From NCBI RefSeq assembly GCF_017526105.1, contig NZ_CP071839.1:7230001-7294000 (forward strand): a DNA stretch of 64,000 nucleotides, given 5' to 3'. How positions within the stretch are numbered: the first letter of the stretch is position 1; each line of letters starts with the position of its first letter. The notes beneath the pieces are model-generated. The model did not search any database. It was not told the origin of the DNA and saw only the letters and a list, made by a program, of their open reading frames with translations. Of this stretch, positions 57,705-64,000 are shown piece after piece. This DNA is from Streptomyces cyanogenus (GTDB lineage Bacteria; Actinomycetota; Actinomycetes; Streptomycetales; Streptomycetaceae). Made by a program: the position numbers and the translations under genes.

Positions 57705-58864
57705 AACGTCGGCCACCACTCCAACTCGTTAAGCCCCACCGCCAGTTCAAGCTCGGAGAACCGTTTCATAAGGGACCATACGGCGATTTCCGCCTCCATC
57801 CGCGCGAGCGGGGCGCCAATGCAGTAGTGCACTCCGTAGCCGAACGCCAAGTGAGTTGGTGTACGGGTCGGGTCGAACACCTCGGGAGACGGGAACTCCC
57901 GCCCGTCCCGGTTCGCCGAAGCGATGGAGACCCACACTCGACTGCCAGCGGGGATGAGAGCGTTACCGATGCTGACGTCTTCGAGGGCGAAGCGGCGTAC
58001 CGCCAGTGCGAAAGGGGGGTTCCAGCGCAGCGTCTCCTCGACCACCGACCGTATCGGGACGGCGCCACCTCGCACCGCCGTCAGCAGTCGGGGGTGCAGC
58101 AGCAGACTCAATGCTGTGTTGCCGATGAGATGCACGGCGTTGTCGTAGCCGGCGAACAGAGTGAGGAACGCCAGGGAGACGAGTTCAGGCTCGGTGAGTA
58201 CGTCGCGGTCGTCGCGGGCTTGGACGAGGGCAGACAGAAGGTCCTCGGTCGGACTGTTTCGTTTTTCCTCGATAACACTTTTGAGAAATTGGTGCATCTG
58301 CCTCATCGCAGTGCGTGACTCCGTTGCCGCGCCTGGCGCTGGTGAGAAGAGTGTGTCGGTCCAGGCCCGAAAGTCGAGCCTCGCTGTCTCCGGGATGCCG
58401 AGCAGTTCACAGATGACGCTCATCGGCAGTGGGACGGCCAGGGCGTGGACGAGGTCCACGCGAGGGCCGGTCATCGTGGTGAGGAGTTCGTCGGTCAGCT
58501 TCTGGATGCGCATGCGCAGGCCCTCGACGCGACGAGGAGTGAATGCTTTGGCGACGAGCCGGCGCAGGCGAGTGTGGTCGGGCGGATCCATGTTGAGCAG
58601 GTGAGTATCGAGCTCAGGGGGCATGGAGGATCTGTACTCGCCGCTGGTCTTGGCGTTTGCCTTGTTCAGGGAGAGCCGGGGGTCTGCCAGAGCCGCGCGG
58701 GCCTCGGCGTACCGGGTGATCAGCCACATGGGTTCGCCGTCGGGAGTGGCGGTGCGGTGGACCGGGGCGGCTTCACGGAGCCGGGCATAGGTGCCATGTG
58801 GGTCAGCGACGAGTGCTTCACTGAGCAGCGACGAGACGCTGCCGGTCTGTTCGGTGTTGCTCAT
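57662..58864 (-). CDS. Cytochrome P450 with atypical I-helix
   Basis: 400 residues; ATG overlaps the stop of the upstream membrane-protein gene (ATGA). LNMDPPDHTRLRRLVAKAFT (C-helix region), I-helix LTLFAGYDNAVHLIGN, K-helix VEETLRW (E-x-x-R), and heme loop LAFGYGVHYCIGAPLARMEA (F-G-x-G-x-H-x-C-x-G) identify an actinobacterial CYP. In the I-helix the usual AG-x-D/E-T reads AGYDN, so the oxygen-activating Thr is Asn. The coupling to the membrane protein and ImmA-like gene suggests a small-molecule function tied to that module. Confidence 0.93.
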   Translation of the reverse strand: MSNTEQTGSVSSLLSEALVADPHGTYARLREAAPVHRTATPDGEPMWLITRYAEARAALADPRLSLNKANAKTSGEYRSSMPPELDTHLLNMDPPDHTRLRRLVAKAFTPRRVEGLRMRIQKLTDELLTTMTGPRVDLVHALAVPLPMSVICELLGIPETARLDFRAWTDTLFSPAPGAATESRTAMRQMHQFLKSVIEEKRNSPTEDLLSALVQARDDRDVLTEPELVSLAFLTLFAGYDNAVHLIGNTALSLLLHPRLLTAVRGGAVPIRSVVEETLRWNPPFALAVRRFALEDVSIGNALIPAGSRVWVSIASANRDGREFPSPEVFDPTRTPTHLAFGYGVHYCIGAPLARMEAEIAVWSLMKRFSELELAVGLNELEWWPTFHKRGLRSLPVMTC

Positions 58865-60084
58865 GCGTCCGTTTTCGCCGACTGGAGCCGCTCGAGAACG
58901 GCGGGGATGACGGGGGAGGTGCTGAAGGCGTCGGCGACCAGGGTCAGACGAGCACCTTCCTTGCTGAGGTCGCCGTTGGCGGCGTCGTCGAAGTCTGTGC
59001 CATGTCCCCCTGACGCCTCGTGGCCGGTGGACCGAGCCTGAAGGGCTGCTGCGATCTGCGCGGCTTCTGCAACGGCATCCGCCTCGTCACCGGGGATGTT
59101 CTGGTTCGCCGCTACTTCTCGTGTCATGCGGCTGATCTCCGGGTCATGGTGGGGACGAAGTCTCATTTCGCCGTCGAGTATCTCGATCACCTGGCGACCG
59201 AGGAAGAACCGGAGGTCGCGAGCCAGTTCCCTGCGGGAGGTCGGCGGGGTGACGAGGACGACTTCGGGGAAGGCACGGGTGATCGCCTGCCAAAGGGGGT
59301 AGCGGCGGTGGAAGGTGCGGTAGTCGGACATCCATGCCATGACCCGGCCGAGGCCGACCCCCCAGGCGGGCATGGTGAACCCTATGGCGAAGAGTGCCGC
59401 CGAGACGCTGGCGAACATGGGGGCCACAACGGAGTTGACGAAACCGAGTGGTGAGATGCCGAGCTTGTCCCAGATGAGGGAGATGACCTTGGGCAGGCAG
59501 TAGCCCAAGCCGGCGACTGCTCCCACGGTGACGATGCGCAGGCCGCGCCGCAGCCAAGGCTGGCCGACGATCTTGGAGTAGCGCCAGCAGAGCCGGATCA
59601 GCCCGATCATGCTGACTGTGTACAGGGTCTGGTGGACGAGGAGGAACTCCCAGATGTATGCGGTCTTGGCATAGTGAACGTCGAAGTCAAGGGCATGCGA
59701 CGTATCGGTGGCGTCCCCCAGGAAGAACAGCACCCAGTTCGTGGTGACCGTGGCGAGGGCGTATCCGAGGATCAGCCGGTGACGGAGCCGGACCTTCGAC
59801 TGCGCAGACGACCAGCTGACGAGGAGGGCCAGGAACGAGGTGAGGCAGACCTCCACGGTCGTGTAGATGATCAGCGAACTGATGTTGGGCGTGCCGATCA
59901 GAGCATCGACACGTACGTACACCGGGGGAGCGGCGAAGCCGAACGGTGCGGCGAACATTGCGATCGCCAGACACAGCCGCTGCAGTTCCTTGTTGCGCCA
60001 GTCGCGGGCGAGGTCTCTCAGCTTGAAGGCGAACGCGCTCCAAGTGATCAAGGAGAGCGTTCCGTAGACGACATTGAATAACAC
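58861..60084 (-). CDS. MAB_1171c-type integral membrane protein
   Basis: 407 residues, GTG start 4 bp after the ImmA-like stop. Seven or so membrane helices in residues 1-235: LFNVVYGTLSLITWSAFAFK, LCLAIAMFAAPFGFAAPP, LIIYTTVEVCLTSFLALLVS, ILGYALATVTTNWVLFFLG, LVHQTLYTVSMIGLIRLCW, VGAVAGLGYCLPKVISLI, FASVSAALFAIGFTM. The soluble C-terminus (240-407) begins VMAWMSDYRTFHRRYPLWQA and RDLRFFLGRQVIEILDG, as in the family called MAB_1171c putative transporter/DUF6545. The 7-helix plus cytoplasmic tail layout also resembles a sensor. Function unknown. Confidence 0.75.
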   Translation of the reverse strand: MLFNVVYGTLSLITWSAFAFKLRDLARDWRNKELQRLCLAIAMFAAPFGFAAPPVYVRVDALIGTPNISSLIIYTTVEVCLTSFLALLVSWSSAQSKVRLRHRLILGYALATVTTNWVLFFLGDATDTSHALDFDVHYAKTAYIWEFLLVHQTLYTVSMIGLIRLCWRYSKIVGQPWLRRGLRIVTVGAVAGLGYCLPKVISLIWDKLGISPLGFVNSVVAPMFASVSAALFAIGFTMPAWGVGLGRVMAWMSDYRTFHRRYPLWQAITRAFPEVVLVTPPTSRRELARDLRFFLGRQVIEILDGEMRLRPHHDPEISRMTREVAANQNIPGDEADAVAEAAQIAAALQARSTGHEASGGHGTDFDDAANGDLSKEGARLTLVADAFSTSPVIPAVLERLQSAKTDA

Positions 60085-60088
60085 TCGG

Positions 60089-60622
60089 CTATGTCCTTGG
60101 TGTGGAACTGCGCCCCAGGGAGCGCTCGAGGTGGCTGACGAGGTTGACCACGTCTTCCGAAAGACTTGGCGTCGGCCGGGGAGCGGCGTTGGCGGCCTGC
60201 AGGGGGATCAGCGAGGCAACAAGCTCGGCAGCCCTCTCCTCGCTCCGGTCGTAGCAGGTGCGCCCGAGGACGGTGCGCACTAGCGCCGGGTCGATGTTCG
60301 GCAGAAGGAGTCGGGAGACCTCTTCCTCCTCTGCCGGGGTGGACTCGTGCTCGCAGAGCATGTGGCCGATCTCGTGGAGGACGATGTGGCCTTGGTGCGC
60401 TTTTCTGGCCTCCTCCTGGTAGATGACGTAGTCCACGTCGGATGTTGCGACCCACATGCCGCACAGGCCTCGGTCGGCGGGGAGCGGCATCGGTACGAGC
60501 GAGATGGCACGTCCGCGGCGCTCCTCTATCTGGTCGACGAGGGCATTGATGTTGAACGGCTCGGGGATGTCGAGTTGCCGGACCAGATCGGCGCAGTAGC
60601 GACGCAGTTCCCTGTCATTCAT
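60089..60622 (-). CDS. ImmA/IrrE-family metallopeptidase
   Basis: 177 residues from ATG 60622 (G-rich GGGGGGAGCGGGG upstream). LRRYCADLVRQLDIPEPFNI, then the zinc motif in GHIVLHEIGHMLCEHESTP (H-E-x-x-H, about residue 87). In ICEBs1 and Deinococcus such proteases cleave an XRE-type repressor to release its regulon. A double-HTH regulator is encoded 172 bp upstream on the same strand, the expected partner. First gene of a probable operon with the membrane protein and P450. Confidence 0.87.
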   Translation of the reverse strand: MNDRELRRYCADLVRQLDIPEPFNINALVDQIEERRGRAISLVPMPLPADRGLCGMWVATSDVDYVIYQEEARKAHQGHIVLHEIGHMLCEHESTPAEEEEVSRLLLPNIDPALVRTVLGRTCYDRSEERAAELVASLIPLQAANAAPRPTPSLSEDVVNLVSHLERSLGRSSTPRT

Positions 60623-60794
60623 CCCCGCTCCCCCCGGGTCGGCCCACTGCCACTGGACAAAGACCACTTTCGTGCTCCCCCCCTCACCACCGCGGCGCCT
60701 GTCTCGCTCGGCAGCGGCGGAAGTCCGCATGGACCGCCGGACCCAACCCAGTTGCCTGCAGTGGAGCATCTTCGTATACCGCCCTACCAGCAGC

Positions 60795-61781
60795 TCACAT
60801 CCGTTGCCGCTTGCTTGCCCGCTGCAGGTGCTGGATCACCGGGACGAGGGCAGCAAGCGCCTCCTCGTCCAGGTCGGCGACTGCCCGAAGAGCGATCTGG
60901 CGGGGGCCGATGCCCTGGGACTTCAGCGTCTCCACGAGGTTGAGATCTGCGGAGACCTGAGACGCTACTTCGTCGTTGACGAAGTAGCCGACGGGTACGC
61001 CGAAGAAGCTGGCGAGCGCATCGAGTTGCTCAGGACTCGGCGAAGTCCAGGTGCCGTGTCGTAGCTCCTCGACTTGTGCTGCTGTGATCTTGACCCCGTG
61101 CGCGGTGATTGTCTCGGCAACCTCGTGCGAGGTGTACGTCTCACGCCCTCTGGGGTGCATGACCGCGAAAAGGCGGTTCAGTCGCGCCGAGAGATCCGGG
61201 ACGGCGGACGGCGGCTGCGCAGGCCTCGGCGGGTTCTCGGCGTCCGCCTCCCGGGGTGAGGGCACCGCAGCTTCGCGCTCCGCCGGCGAAGTGGCTGAAC
61301 CATCGACCTCCGGCCTCCCTGACGTCTGCTGCAGCGCGGCCAACATGGGCAGCAGTACGCGGTTGAGGGCCTCAGCAGCTGGGGCGGTGAAAAACGCCTC
61401 GCCTCCCTCGACACCGAAGAATCCCACCAGGCCGTGCAGCAGTTCAACACTCGGTACTTTGTCGCCAGAGCACACCTGACGTGCCCAGAAAGAGGAAACA
61501 CCCAGCTGTCGGGAAATGCTGCCAGCCAGGTCTGACATAGGCTTTCCGGTGCGTGCCAAGTATGCATCAGCAAGGATCTTGATACGTGCACTGACCCGGG
61601 CTGCCACGGTGTCGGCCGGAGTGTGGCCGCCTCTGAGTAGGACGGCGACGGTGTTTTGGGGCAGCGCCGCCTTTGCTGCCAGCTCCCCGATGTCGAGCAC
61701 TTGCGATCGATTCATGCCCCGTTCTTTGAGCAGTGCCTCGAGGCGCGCAAGCGTCATCGGCAGGGGTGAGGCAGAGCCCAC
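60795..61781 (-). CDS. Double-HTH XRE-type regulator
   Basis: 328 residues, GTG start with GGGAG 8 bp upstream. The first HTH-like region (about 25-125) includes ELAAKAALPQNTVAVLLRGG and LAGSISRQLGVSSFWARQVC. A Pro/Ala-rich linker (about 155-190) leads to a second XRE domain: YTSHEVAETITAHGVKITAA and VEELRHGTWTSPSPEQLDAL, ASFFGVPVGYFVND (about 205-265). The C-terminal helix has LDEEALAALVPVIQHLQ. It is the likely repressor or activator cleaved by the ImmA-like protein; dyads in the upstream gap are candidate operators. Confidence 0.82.
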   Translation of the reverse strand: MGSASPLPMTLARLEALLKERGMNRSQVLDIGELAAKAALPQNTVAVLLRGGHTPADTVAARVSARIKILADAYLARTGKPMSDLAGSISRQLGVSSFWARQVCSGDKVPSVELLHGLVGFFGVEGGEAFFTAPAAEALNRVLLPMLAALQQTSGRPEVDGSATSPAEREAAVPSPREADAENPPRPAQPPSAVPDLSARLNRLFAVMHPRGRETYTSHEVAETITAHGVKITAAQVEELRHGTWTSPSPEQLDALASFFGVPVGYFVNDEVASQVSADLNLVETLKSQGIGPRQIALRAVADLDEEALAALVPVIQHLQRASKRQRM

Positions 61782-62880: not shown

Positions 62881-63390
62881 ATGACATCCGTACCACATCC
62901 GCCCGCATCCAGTGTCGATCCAGCTGGCAGGAACATTGGAGCCGGCGCCGCACCAGGTGCCGGGTCGGCGCTCTACACCCGGATAGGGCGCAAGCTCAAG
63001 CAGGAGATCGTGTCGGGTGTCTATGCCCAGGGCGCGTACCTGCCTTCGTCGGGTGAACTCGGAAAGTTATATGGCGCGAACAAGAACACCGTCCTCCGGG
63101 CGCTTCGGATGCTGCGCGCCGAAGGGCTGATCGACTTCGGCCGGGGCCGTGGCGCGGTCGTGGTGCACTCGGCGCGCAAAGTGGGCCTCGCGGAGATATC
63201 GGAGCAGCTCCGCTACGTCGTGAACCTTGCCGACGTCTCCGGGATTCCGAGGGCCGCCGTCGTGGCTGCAATACACCGAATTCCGCCATCGCAAGGCCCG
63301 CGCCCCGCTGGGGCCTTGCCCGCCGCGGCGGCCCGACGTGGGGGAGCAGGCCGCACGGCGTTCAGGCCGCACGGGCGTGGTGCCGCGTGA
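62881..63390 (+). CDS. GntR-family transcriptional regulator
   Basis: 169 residues from ATG 62881 (AGGGGGAAA upstream). After a 35-residue Pro/Gly-rich leader: LYTRIGRKLKQEIVSGVYAQ, YLPSSGELGKLYGANKNTVL and RALRMLRAEGLIDFGRGRGA, a classic GntR winged helix (about 37-105). After VSGIPRAAVVAAIHRIP the last 35 residues are low-complexity Pro/Arg/Ala, which could reflect a frameshift past the normal end. No effector domain, as in short KorSA-like or YtrA-like regulators of mobile elements. Confidence 0.85.
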   Translation: MTSVPHPPASSVDPAGRNIGAGAAPGAGSALYTRIGRKLKQEIVSGVYAQGAYLPSSGELGKLYGANKNTVLRALRMLRAEGLIDFGRGRGAVVVHSARKVGLAEISEQLRYVVNLADVSGIPRAAVVAAIHRIPPSQGPRPAGALPAAAARRGGAGRTAFRPHGRGAA

Positions 63391-63592
63391 CGGGCGGCAC
63401 CGCCGCGACAGTGGCAAGGAAGCTAATACCCAGGGTCACGATAAAGCCAGGGAAACCATCTCTCCTGGCCGAGGATCCCTTCGTGCGCGATGACTCGGAG
63501 CATGGGCAAAAGGCCAGGCAGCGCCGTAGCCCCGAGGGTCGGTTGATGTACTCTCCGTGGTGACCACGCAGAGTACAGGAATTGGTCTTTCA

Positions 63593-63622: not shown

Positions 63623-63686
63623 CGCTGGCGACCGGAAGACCCCACGGGGCACCGCGTCTACTCCATACGGAAGGGAGGTGAACAGC

Positions 63687-63806
63687 ATGGGACGGAAGAT
63701 CTACGAGGCGCCGGCGATGTTCATTGCCGGTGACTTCCGACTGGACACCGGATTCCTGCGGCGCGGTCCGCATGAGCCCAGGGTCCGTCTGCCGCTGGGT
63801 TGGTAG
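63687..63806 (+). CDS. Lasso peptide precursor (39 aa)
   Basis: Short gene with a strong GGGAGGTG 8 bp before the ATG. Leader of 22 residues (MGRKIYEAPAMFIAGDF, then RLDTG) with the Y-x-x-P motif (Tyr6, Pro9) read by the B1 recognition element, a G-x-F pair, and Thr21 at position -2, required by lasso leader peptidases. Core: FLRRGPHEPRVRLPLGW (17 residues). Phe1 and Glu8 are placed exactly for the macrolactam, giving an 8-residue ring with a 9-residue loop and tail, no Cys (class II). The next gene, 16 bp downstream, is the lasso cyclase. Biosynthetic genes B1/B2 should follow outside the window. Confidence 0.88.
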   Translation: MGRKIYEAPAMFIAGDFRLDTGFLRRGPHEPRVRLPLGW

Positions 63807-63822
63807 CGATCTCTGGAGAACT

Positions 63823-64000
63823 ATGTCGAGCCACGGCGAAAGCTGGTTTGTGGTACTGCCTGATTGTGAGGCCGGCCTCGCCGTGGCCTCGCGTCTCGAA
63901 GAACAACGAAGAAACAAGGCCCCAAAGCGGGTGCTCCATCCTTCCGGCCGGCCCCTGCTGATCGGCTCCTGGGGCTCCGCGTTCGTCACGACGACCCGGC
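63823..64000 (+). CDS. Lasso peptide cyclase (asparagine synthetase-like), N-terminal 59 residues
   Basis: Begins at ATG 63823 (GGAGA upstream), 16 bp after the precursor stop, and runs off the window. The visible part reads SWFVVLPDCEAGLAVASRL, then KRVLHPSGRPLLIGSWGSAF. F-V-V-L-P-D and the H-x-S-G-R-P-W/L-L-x-G-x-W motif open lasso cyclases (asparagine synthetase homologues that adenylate the ring Asp/Glu side chain and form the isopeptide bond). Order precursor-cyclase is the normal actinobacterial A-C arrangement. Confidence 0.85.
   Translation, partial: MSSHGESWFVVLPDCEAGLAVASRLEEQRRNKAPKRVLHPSGRPLLIGSWGSAFVTTTR

Follow-up and report, generated by a model that had tools for sequence, protein, structure and literature searches.

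A lasso peptide cluster followed by a class I lanthipeptide cluster in Streptomyces cyanogenus and its relatives: a proposed compound locus for two classes of RiPP

Does the short gene at the right edge of this stretch of DNA open a lasso peptide cluster, and if so, why do the genes of a second class of RiPP follow directly behind it? The window, i.e., the whole stretch of 64,000 nucleotides that was analysed, corresponds to G000:C1:7230001-7294000 of the 8.77-Mb single-contig genome of S. cyanogenus, and the next 28 kb of the chromosome were added to it. Features beyond the edge are given in window-equivalent positions, which are obtained by adding 55000 to a coordinate of stretch L002 or 75000 to a coordinate of stretch L003, both taken from the same chromosome.

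The lasso precursor and its biosynthetic genes

The precursor gene lasA lies on the plus strand at 63687..63806 and encodes 39 residues plus a stop, with its ATG at 63687 and its stop codon at 63804-63806. A ribosome-binding site, GGGAGG (63673..63678, plus strand), is found eight bases 5' of this ATG, which is preferred as the start because an in-frame GTG at 63678 overlaps that site. The full LasA is the leader MGRKIYEAPAMFIAGDFRLDTG (63687..63752) followed by the 17-residue core FLRRGPHEPRVRLPLGW (63753..63803), for which an isopeptide ring between F1 and E8 and a nine-residue tail are predicted. The initial annotation had described a 39-residue lasso precursor with Y-x-x-P in the leader, Thr at -2 and Glu at core position 8, and all of these are confirmed in the sequence; the leader, which was read in an alignment of six distinct precursors, has the Y-x-x-P motif as YEAP. 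Glu8 is the sole acidic residue of the core, which leaves no other candidate acceptor for the ring, and falls within core positions 7-9, where an acidic residue is required. The core contains no Ser, Thr, or Cys, and the predicted peptide is basic owing to four Arg and one His; its computed masses are 2068.183 for [M+H]+ and 1034.595 for [M+2H]2+. LasA matches the Pfam family DUF5972 with 37.1 bits against a cut-off of 22.6, and this match, together with the presence of the gene beside a cyclase gene in 12 Streptomyces genomes, argues that lasA is not a chance open reading frame.

The next gene, lasC (63823-65625, plus strand; 63823..64000 within the window), starts 16 bases after lasA and had been taken for a lasso cyclase on the strength of its first codons. 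This assignment holds for the complete gene, a 600-codon open reading frame whose product matches Asn_synthase (PF00733) with 133.4 bits, the cut-off being 21. The protein falls below both NCBI lasso-cyclase cut-offs, with 245 of 300 bits for NF033561 and 42.6 of 525 for NF033535, which we read as divergence. Its translation also contains SGGxDS, which we take to be the cyclase motif. A frameshift in the cyclase was looked for in the parent chromosome and none was found: all 600 codons are open here, and across all 11 loci the length of the gene is 597-600 codons.

The rightward extension proposed with the initial annotation, namely, a search for B1, B2, and a transporter, revealed all three downstream on the same chromosome. 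The B1 gene (window-equivalent 65648-65899, plus strand) encodes a PqqD-like RRE protein of 83 residues, which reaches 97.7 bits against the lasso PqqD model NF033530 (cut-off 70) and can be aligned along most of its sequence with TfuB1 (6jx3), at an E-value of 1e-16. It is followed by B2 (window-equivalent 65896-66354, plus strand), a transglutaminase-fold leader protease of 152 residues that scores 121.7 bits against the lasso B2 model NF033537 (cut-off 33) and 97.2 bits against PF13471 (cut-off 26). B2, C, and LasA had no match in sequence searches of solved structures. The ABC exporter gene ABC1 runs on the plus strand from about window-equivalent 66359, with a GTG start as placed, to 68086, and its product has a Pfam ABC match above the cut-off. 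Its end is overlapped by luxR (window-equivalent 68079-68366, plus strand), which with the chosen start encodes a LuxR-type HTH regulator of 95 residues in which only DNA-binding domains were matched.

Missing B1 and B2 genes or a broken cyclase had been named at the outset as findings that would speak against a lasso cluster; both genes are present and the cyclase is unbroken, and the lasso interpretation is supported on that account. The genes at the window edge are almost certainly, to judge from their sequences, the first of a complete actinobacterial lasso cluster with a predicted threaded product. By analogy with the known lasso pathway, B1 would bind the YxxP leader and hand LasA to B2, which would cleave it after TG; C would then activate Glu8 and link it to the amino group of Phe1, closing the ring around the threaded tail PRVRLPLGW, and ABC1 would export the resulting 17-residue lasso. 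The same genome carries a second lasso-type cyclase gene at G000:C1:6522697-6524487, whose product is 42% identical to that of lasC.

The attached lanthipeptide genes and the upstream region

Directly after the lasso genes comes a class I lanthipeptide half, which spans window-equivalent 68435-77214 (L002:13435-20000 and L003:1-2214) with all of its genes on the plus strand. Its precursor gene, lanA, begins at window-equivalent 68435 and encodes the FDLD-type class I lanthipeptide precursor MSGNAFDLDVRVTSPSTAGLDRAPASISSLLTRAVCTRVTCKANCTYVCTTVCTSGICPKEHSH, which has a core with Ser, Thr, and Cys and matches NF038155 with 40 bits (cut-off 20); nine LanA sequences were aligned. The LanC cyclase gene ends at window-equivalent 70084 (PF05147, 138.5 bits), and the gene for the LanB dehydratase, which has both N and C domains (PF04738, 509.7 bits; PF14028, 179.1 bits), ends at 73149, all three scores lying above their cut-offs. 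A second ABC exporter (exporter 2; window-equivalent 73146-74930, Pfam ABC) follows. An LLM-family oxidoreductase is encoded next, at window-equivalent 75025-75918 as read, with a start that may be further upstream; it reaches 104.5 bits in Pfam (cut-off 27.9) and falls short of the cut-offs of all NCBI F420 models that it matched. By analogy, this oxidoreductase may be a LanJC reductase. The last gene of this half encodes an erythromycin-esterase-like (Ere-like) protein (window-equivalent 75958-77214; Pfam match above the cut-off). No protease for the LanA leader was found among the genes scanned.

LanB and LanC would form rings in LanA separately from the lasso pathway. The possibility that the lanthipeptide enzymes also modify the lasso core was rejected: this core offers no Ser, Thr, or Cys for lanthipeptide rings, and the link between the two halves is therefore not chemical.

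On the other side of lasA, a GntR-type DNA-binding regulator of 169 residues is encoded at 62881..63390 (plus strand), with a single N-terminal wHTH match (PF00392, 54.9 bits, cut-off 27). All 11 loci have a homologue of this regulator 5' of lasA, where it opens the conserved block. Between the two genes, a palindrome scan found the 29-bp inverted repeat GTACTCTCCGTGGTGACCACGCAGAGTAC with one mismatched pair (63548..63576), from which we infer only a candidate operator; it was absent as the top or the same repeat from the 10 other loci scanned at the matching place. An operator common to lasA and lanA was considered and rejected, because no shared motif was seen when the two upstream alignments were compared by eye and because the lasA palindrome is not the top repeat elsewhere. 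The interval between GntR and lasA also holds, on the minus strand at about 63364-63589, a conserved hydrophobic frame (..VTLR.SFLG..), which was recognised by motif in 10 of 11 loci and is possibly the tail end of a membrane gene that has been lost. Further upstream, three minus-strand genes have homologues upstream of lasA in many of the 10 named loci described below: a DUF6545 protein (58861-60084; 9 of 10), a HEIGH-motif protein (60089-60769; 7 of 10), and an HTH protein (60795-61781; 9 of 10). The HEIGH-motif protein has no Pfam hit and is presumably ImmA/IrrE-like.

Conservation, loss, and divergence of the paired locus

How widely the two halves occur together was assessed on GTDB contigs by a pattern and tblastn scan derived from the precursor alignment, which yielded 10 named loci, all in Streptomyces; the scan used two short patterns, by which distant relatives would be missed. 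Together with S. cyanogenus and one further genome, G326, this makes 12 carriers, duplicates being counted once (G278 = L012, G257 = L019, G367 = L016, and G062 = L020, with 100% identity over 3.1 kb). The order GntR-lasA-C-B1-B2-ABC1-LuxR-LanA is kept in 11 of 11 loci, i.e., the 10 named ones and the present genome, and G326 is a twelfth with the same order, so that lanA follows the lasso genes in every one of the 12 distinct Streptomyces genomes that carry this lasA. LanC and LanB come next in 10 of the 11 loci, the eleventh, L018 of S. ipomoeae, ending at a contig end; with G326 this amounts to 11 genomes. The distance between the starts of lasA and lanA is 4748-4991 bases in the 11 loci and 4746 in G326, and the gap between the end of luxR and lanA measures 68-165 bases in each of the 11 loci. 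Exporter 2, the LLM oxidoreductase, and the Ere-like protein are encoded in the same order in this genome and in all four of the longer stretches, three of which have the lasso half (G326, G367, and G278) and one of which is without it (G348).

Around lasA, the DNA of G326 shows about 94% identity. Its C and ABC1 genes have one frameshift each; the one in C, a one-base difference in a G-run, we read as a probable assembly error. Several of the 12 carriers are closely related, as exemplified by L012 and L019, which are 98.9% identical over 3.1 kb. Plasmid- or virus-borne copies were looked for: PLSDB gave no match at an E-value of 0.01, and the 62 stretches of viral contigs that fitted a pattern all went unconfirmed. 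The LanA profile, run on 394 genomes of the class, found the present genome and two marginal matches (E-values of 6e-4 and 9e-4).

A genus-wide control asked how often a lasso precursor has such a neighbour. The precursor was found at E-values of 2e-28 or lower in 6 of 392 genomes of the genus, and 54 further, weaker lasso-leader hits were obtained at 0.001 or lower. The LanA profile, applied to an equally sized draw of 392 genus genomes with the same handles, found seven: the six lasso carriers and G348. Lant_dehydr_N, which was mapped in the 53 genomes that gave at least one lasso-leader hit, lies less than 9 kb from lasA in all six carriers, whereas none of the 54 other hits has it within 20 kb and only one has it within 50 kb, at 22.6 kb; neighbours of these 54 hits can be hidden by contig ends. 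These distances cover 60 lasso places and most of the dehydratase places, secondary fragments a few kb from included ones being left out. Loci were available for 24 of the 54 hits; a lasso precursor could be read in 23 of them, and citrulassin-type cores account for 20 of these. The resulting figure of 1.4e-12 counts related genomes as independent and is thus no usable probability. This control also bears on the initial remark that Phe at core position 1 is uncommon, which is loosely true: Phe also starts two of the 23 readable precursors from the 24 control loci.

The two halves can be separated. In a thirteenth genome, G348 (L055, G348:C1:7433000-7452000), luxR, LanA, LanC, LanB, exporter 2, the LLM gene, and the Ere-like gene are kept, and lasA, C, B1, and B2 are unmatched at an E-value of 0.1 in the 7.1 kb outward from luxR; genome-wide, a single lasso-leader hit was found, weak and distant. 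Just upstream of luxR there is a relic that matches residues 458-574 of ABC1 with 43% identity and the TBY4 exporter with 54% identity over 115 residues, the rest of the exporter being unmatched. The simplest history for G348 is that the lasso half was lost from a compound ancestor. Because this genome has the lanthipeptide half only, that half can persist alone and is not dependent on the lasso.

Trees of C, ABC1, LanC, and LanB agree in separating this genome and DI166 from the rest, in pairing L012 with L019 and L014 with L015, and in grouping L016, L017, and L020; they have no outgroup, the C tree leaves the placement of L013 unsettled, and branching within the group of three varies between trees. 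Across the carriers, the enzymes and ABC1 have diverged to about 54-67% identity with the gene order intact. The lasso and lanthipeptide halves have very probably been inherited together across two diverged clades of Streptomyces.

The two products appear to have diverged at different rates. The lasso core varies between K and R at positions 3 and 10 and has W, L, or A as its last residue. Between this genome and DI166, 16 of 17 residues of the lasso core are identical, compared with 76-86% identity for C, B1, B2, ABC1, LanC, and LanB and 24 of 36 residues for the lanthipeptide core, so that constraint seems stronger on the lasso product than on the enzymes and weaker on the lanthipeptide product, although the counts are small. 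The nucleotide changes in the lasA core, which are drawn from few sites, amount to 0.07 nonsynonymous against 0.31 synonymous changes per site between clades (L002 and L012). The lasA leader has four synonymous and no amino-acid changes between this genome and DI166; between clades, its values, again from few sites, are 0.21 nonsynonymous and 0.29 synonymous, with no special constraint. Within the second clade (L012, L013, L016, and L020), the lasA leader shows no synonymous change in four comparisons, where the lanA leader shows some in all four. The lasA core shows a synonymous change in three of these four comparisons, and the sites are too few for a claim of constraint at the RNA level.

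Relation to known systems and explanations of the pairing

Citrulassin clusters carry the cyclases closest to that of the lasso half. Among cyclases outside the orthologues in 295 Streptomyces genomes, the 11 nearest are 46-47% identical to C, and all 11 of their loci carry citrulassin-type precursors (LL...GNDR...LSKN) whose leaders align with that of LasA. LasA and the citrulassins, which have a 15-residue core such as LLQRSGNDRLILSKN, share Thr-Gly before the core and a ring of eight, which for LasA is predicted; LasA differs in having Glu8 rather than Asp8, Pro9 rather than Arg9, and 17 residues ending in LPLG(W/L/A), and its locus has a lanthipeptide cluster attached. Citrulassins are defined by Arg at core position 9, the site of citrullination, and a PAD gene is described elsewhere in the genome in 15 of 34 strains (PMC12971885). 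Position 9 is Pro in the six distinct aligned precursors and in a seventh, that of G326, and a PAD gene (PF03068) was found in none of six carrier genomes, the same search finding one in three of nine genomes with citrulassin-type cores. Membership in the citrulassins was rejected in view of the missing Arg9 and the lack of a PAD gene in the six carriers searched. Judging from the precursor and the enzymes, LasA should give a lasso peptide that is made like a citrulassin and is not a citrulassin.

A lasso cluster beside a second RiPP cluster has a parallel in the Bacillota, in which a paeninodin-type lasso cluster is often co-localised with an LPP cluster and synergy has been suggested by the authors (PMC13381572). 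There, a linear polyphosphorylated peptide with a shared RRE-binding leader motif takes the partner's place, and the main text nowhere uses the word "lanthipeptide" (PMC13381572). In the present locus, this place belongs to a class I lanthipeptide, which has a leader of the FDLD type. Other FDLD-type class I lanthipeptide systems are alike in LanA leader, LanB, and LanC and differ from the present locus by its attached lasso cluster. Birimositide is a two-component lantibiotic for which adjoining LLM (PF00296) enzymes have been proposed as LanJC reductases making D-Ala; the likeness lies in the PF00296 enzyme beside a lanthipeptide and in the two co-encoded peptides, but birimositide consists of two class II lanthipeptides (PMC7268733), whereas one partner here is a lasso. 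Lariocidin, like the predicted product, is a strongly basic 17-residue lasso peptide, although its ring uses Asp (PMC11451635; PMC13352647) and the ring predicted here uses Glu8. Ribosome binding by the predicted lasso peptide, after the example of lariocidin, is a conjecture by analogy. A second EF-G-type gene lies just 3' of the Ere-like gene (L003:3056-5164; TIGR00484 above the cut-off). The lariocidin-inspired idea that this EF-G paralogue provides self-protection was rejected. The gene is not counted as part of the locus because a search of 16 stretches, four of which (L055, L056, L058, and L059 with L060) extend past the Ere-like gene, gave no match to it.

We consider it likely, with a probability of roughly 0.78, that these genes form one inherited compound locus making two RiPPs of different classes. 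That the two peptides also cooperate functionally is plausible, though somewhat less likely than not. If the halves are deployed together, a near-invariant lasso with a fixed job would be paired with a drifting lanthipeptide with a changing one, and LuxR, encoded at the end of the lasso set just before lanA, would be the likely link between them. A more specific version of this, in which a fixed basic lasso and a variable class I lanthipeptide constitute a cross-class two-component antibiotic, with the lasso as partner or releasing signal, is unlikely; if true, two unrelated RiPP scaffolds would be joined in one two-component system. It is almost an even chance, by comparison, that two independent RiPP clusters became neighbours in a mobile or ancestral block and have been co-inherited by linkage without any functional tie. 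In favour of this, the two halves encode separate exporters and core enzymes, only the lanthipeptide half is present in G348, and the carriers found belong to one genus and to two clades with close relatives inside each, so that the halves could have hitchhiked together on a single block. However, mere linkage does not readily explain why the order is kept while identity has fallen to about 54-67%, why lanA comes behind the lasso genes in every one of the 12 genomes, or why luxR, with its chosen start, overlaps the end of ABC1 here and is kept within 68-165 bases of lanA in 11 of 11 loci. The absence of such a neighbour within 20 kb of all 54 other lasso-leader hits also argues against it, this control consisting mostly of citrulassins.

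The contrast between a near-invariant lasso core and a varying lanthipeptide core, and the regulators on both sides of the lasso genes, would also suit a lasso that acts as a signal or regulator rather than as a weapon, its fixed sequence being sensed and the lanthipeptide half switched on via GntR or LuxR. This is quite improbable, as no sensor kinase or receptor was found among the genes scanned, LuxR shows DNA-binding domains only, and signalling by lasso peptides is, to our knowledge, little documented. Still less credible, and indeed very improbable, is a dead or non-lasso cluster whose reading frame is translated without any lasso being made. The cyclase scores below the NCBI cut-offs and the frameshifts in G326 would be in keeping with it; against it stand the intact lasA, C, B1, and B2 of this chromosome, the full-length cyclase in 11 of 11 loci, and the low ratio of nonsynonymous to synonymous change in the lasA core between clades, few as those sites are.

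Taken as one compound locus, these fixed-order lasso and lanthipeptide sets in 12 genomes of two clades are a testable case of two RiPP classes that may work as a unit, and such a pair could be missed, since either half expressed alone may show little. Taken by itself, the lasso cluster is a new member of a familiar kind, and the novelty lies in its conserved pairing with a lanthipeptide cluster. No report of a lasso-lanthipeptide pair was found in the open-access literature searched, in which a cluster table may still list such a region. The initial annotation had also called the core unfamiliar. Five core strings, as well as six paired names, are absent from the open-access papers searched; the core is not unique to this genome, being shared, in the same or near-identical form, by 11 other Streptomyces genomes. 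With its Glu8 and Pro9, a cyclase near those of the citrulassins, and no PAD gene in the carriers searched, this lasso widens the diversity around the citrulassins. Other unusual lasso cores were also seen in Streptomyces, namely, FFRNGANEAFFFFQNQND in L026 (G388) and ILGIKGVEPVVNYPKSWW in L008 (G035).
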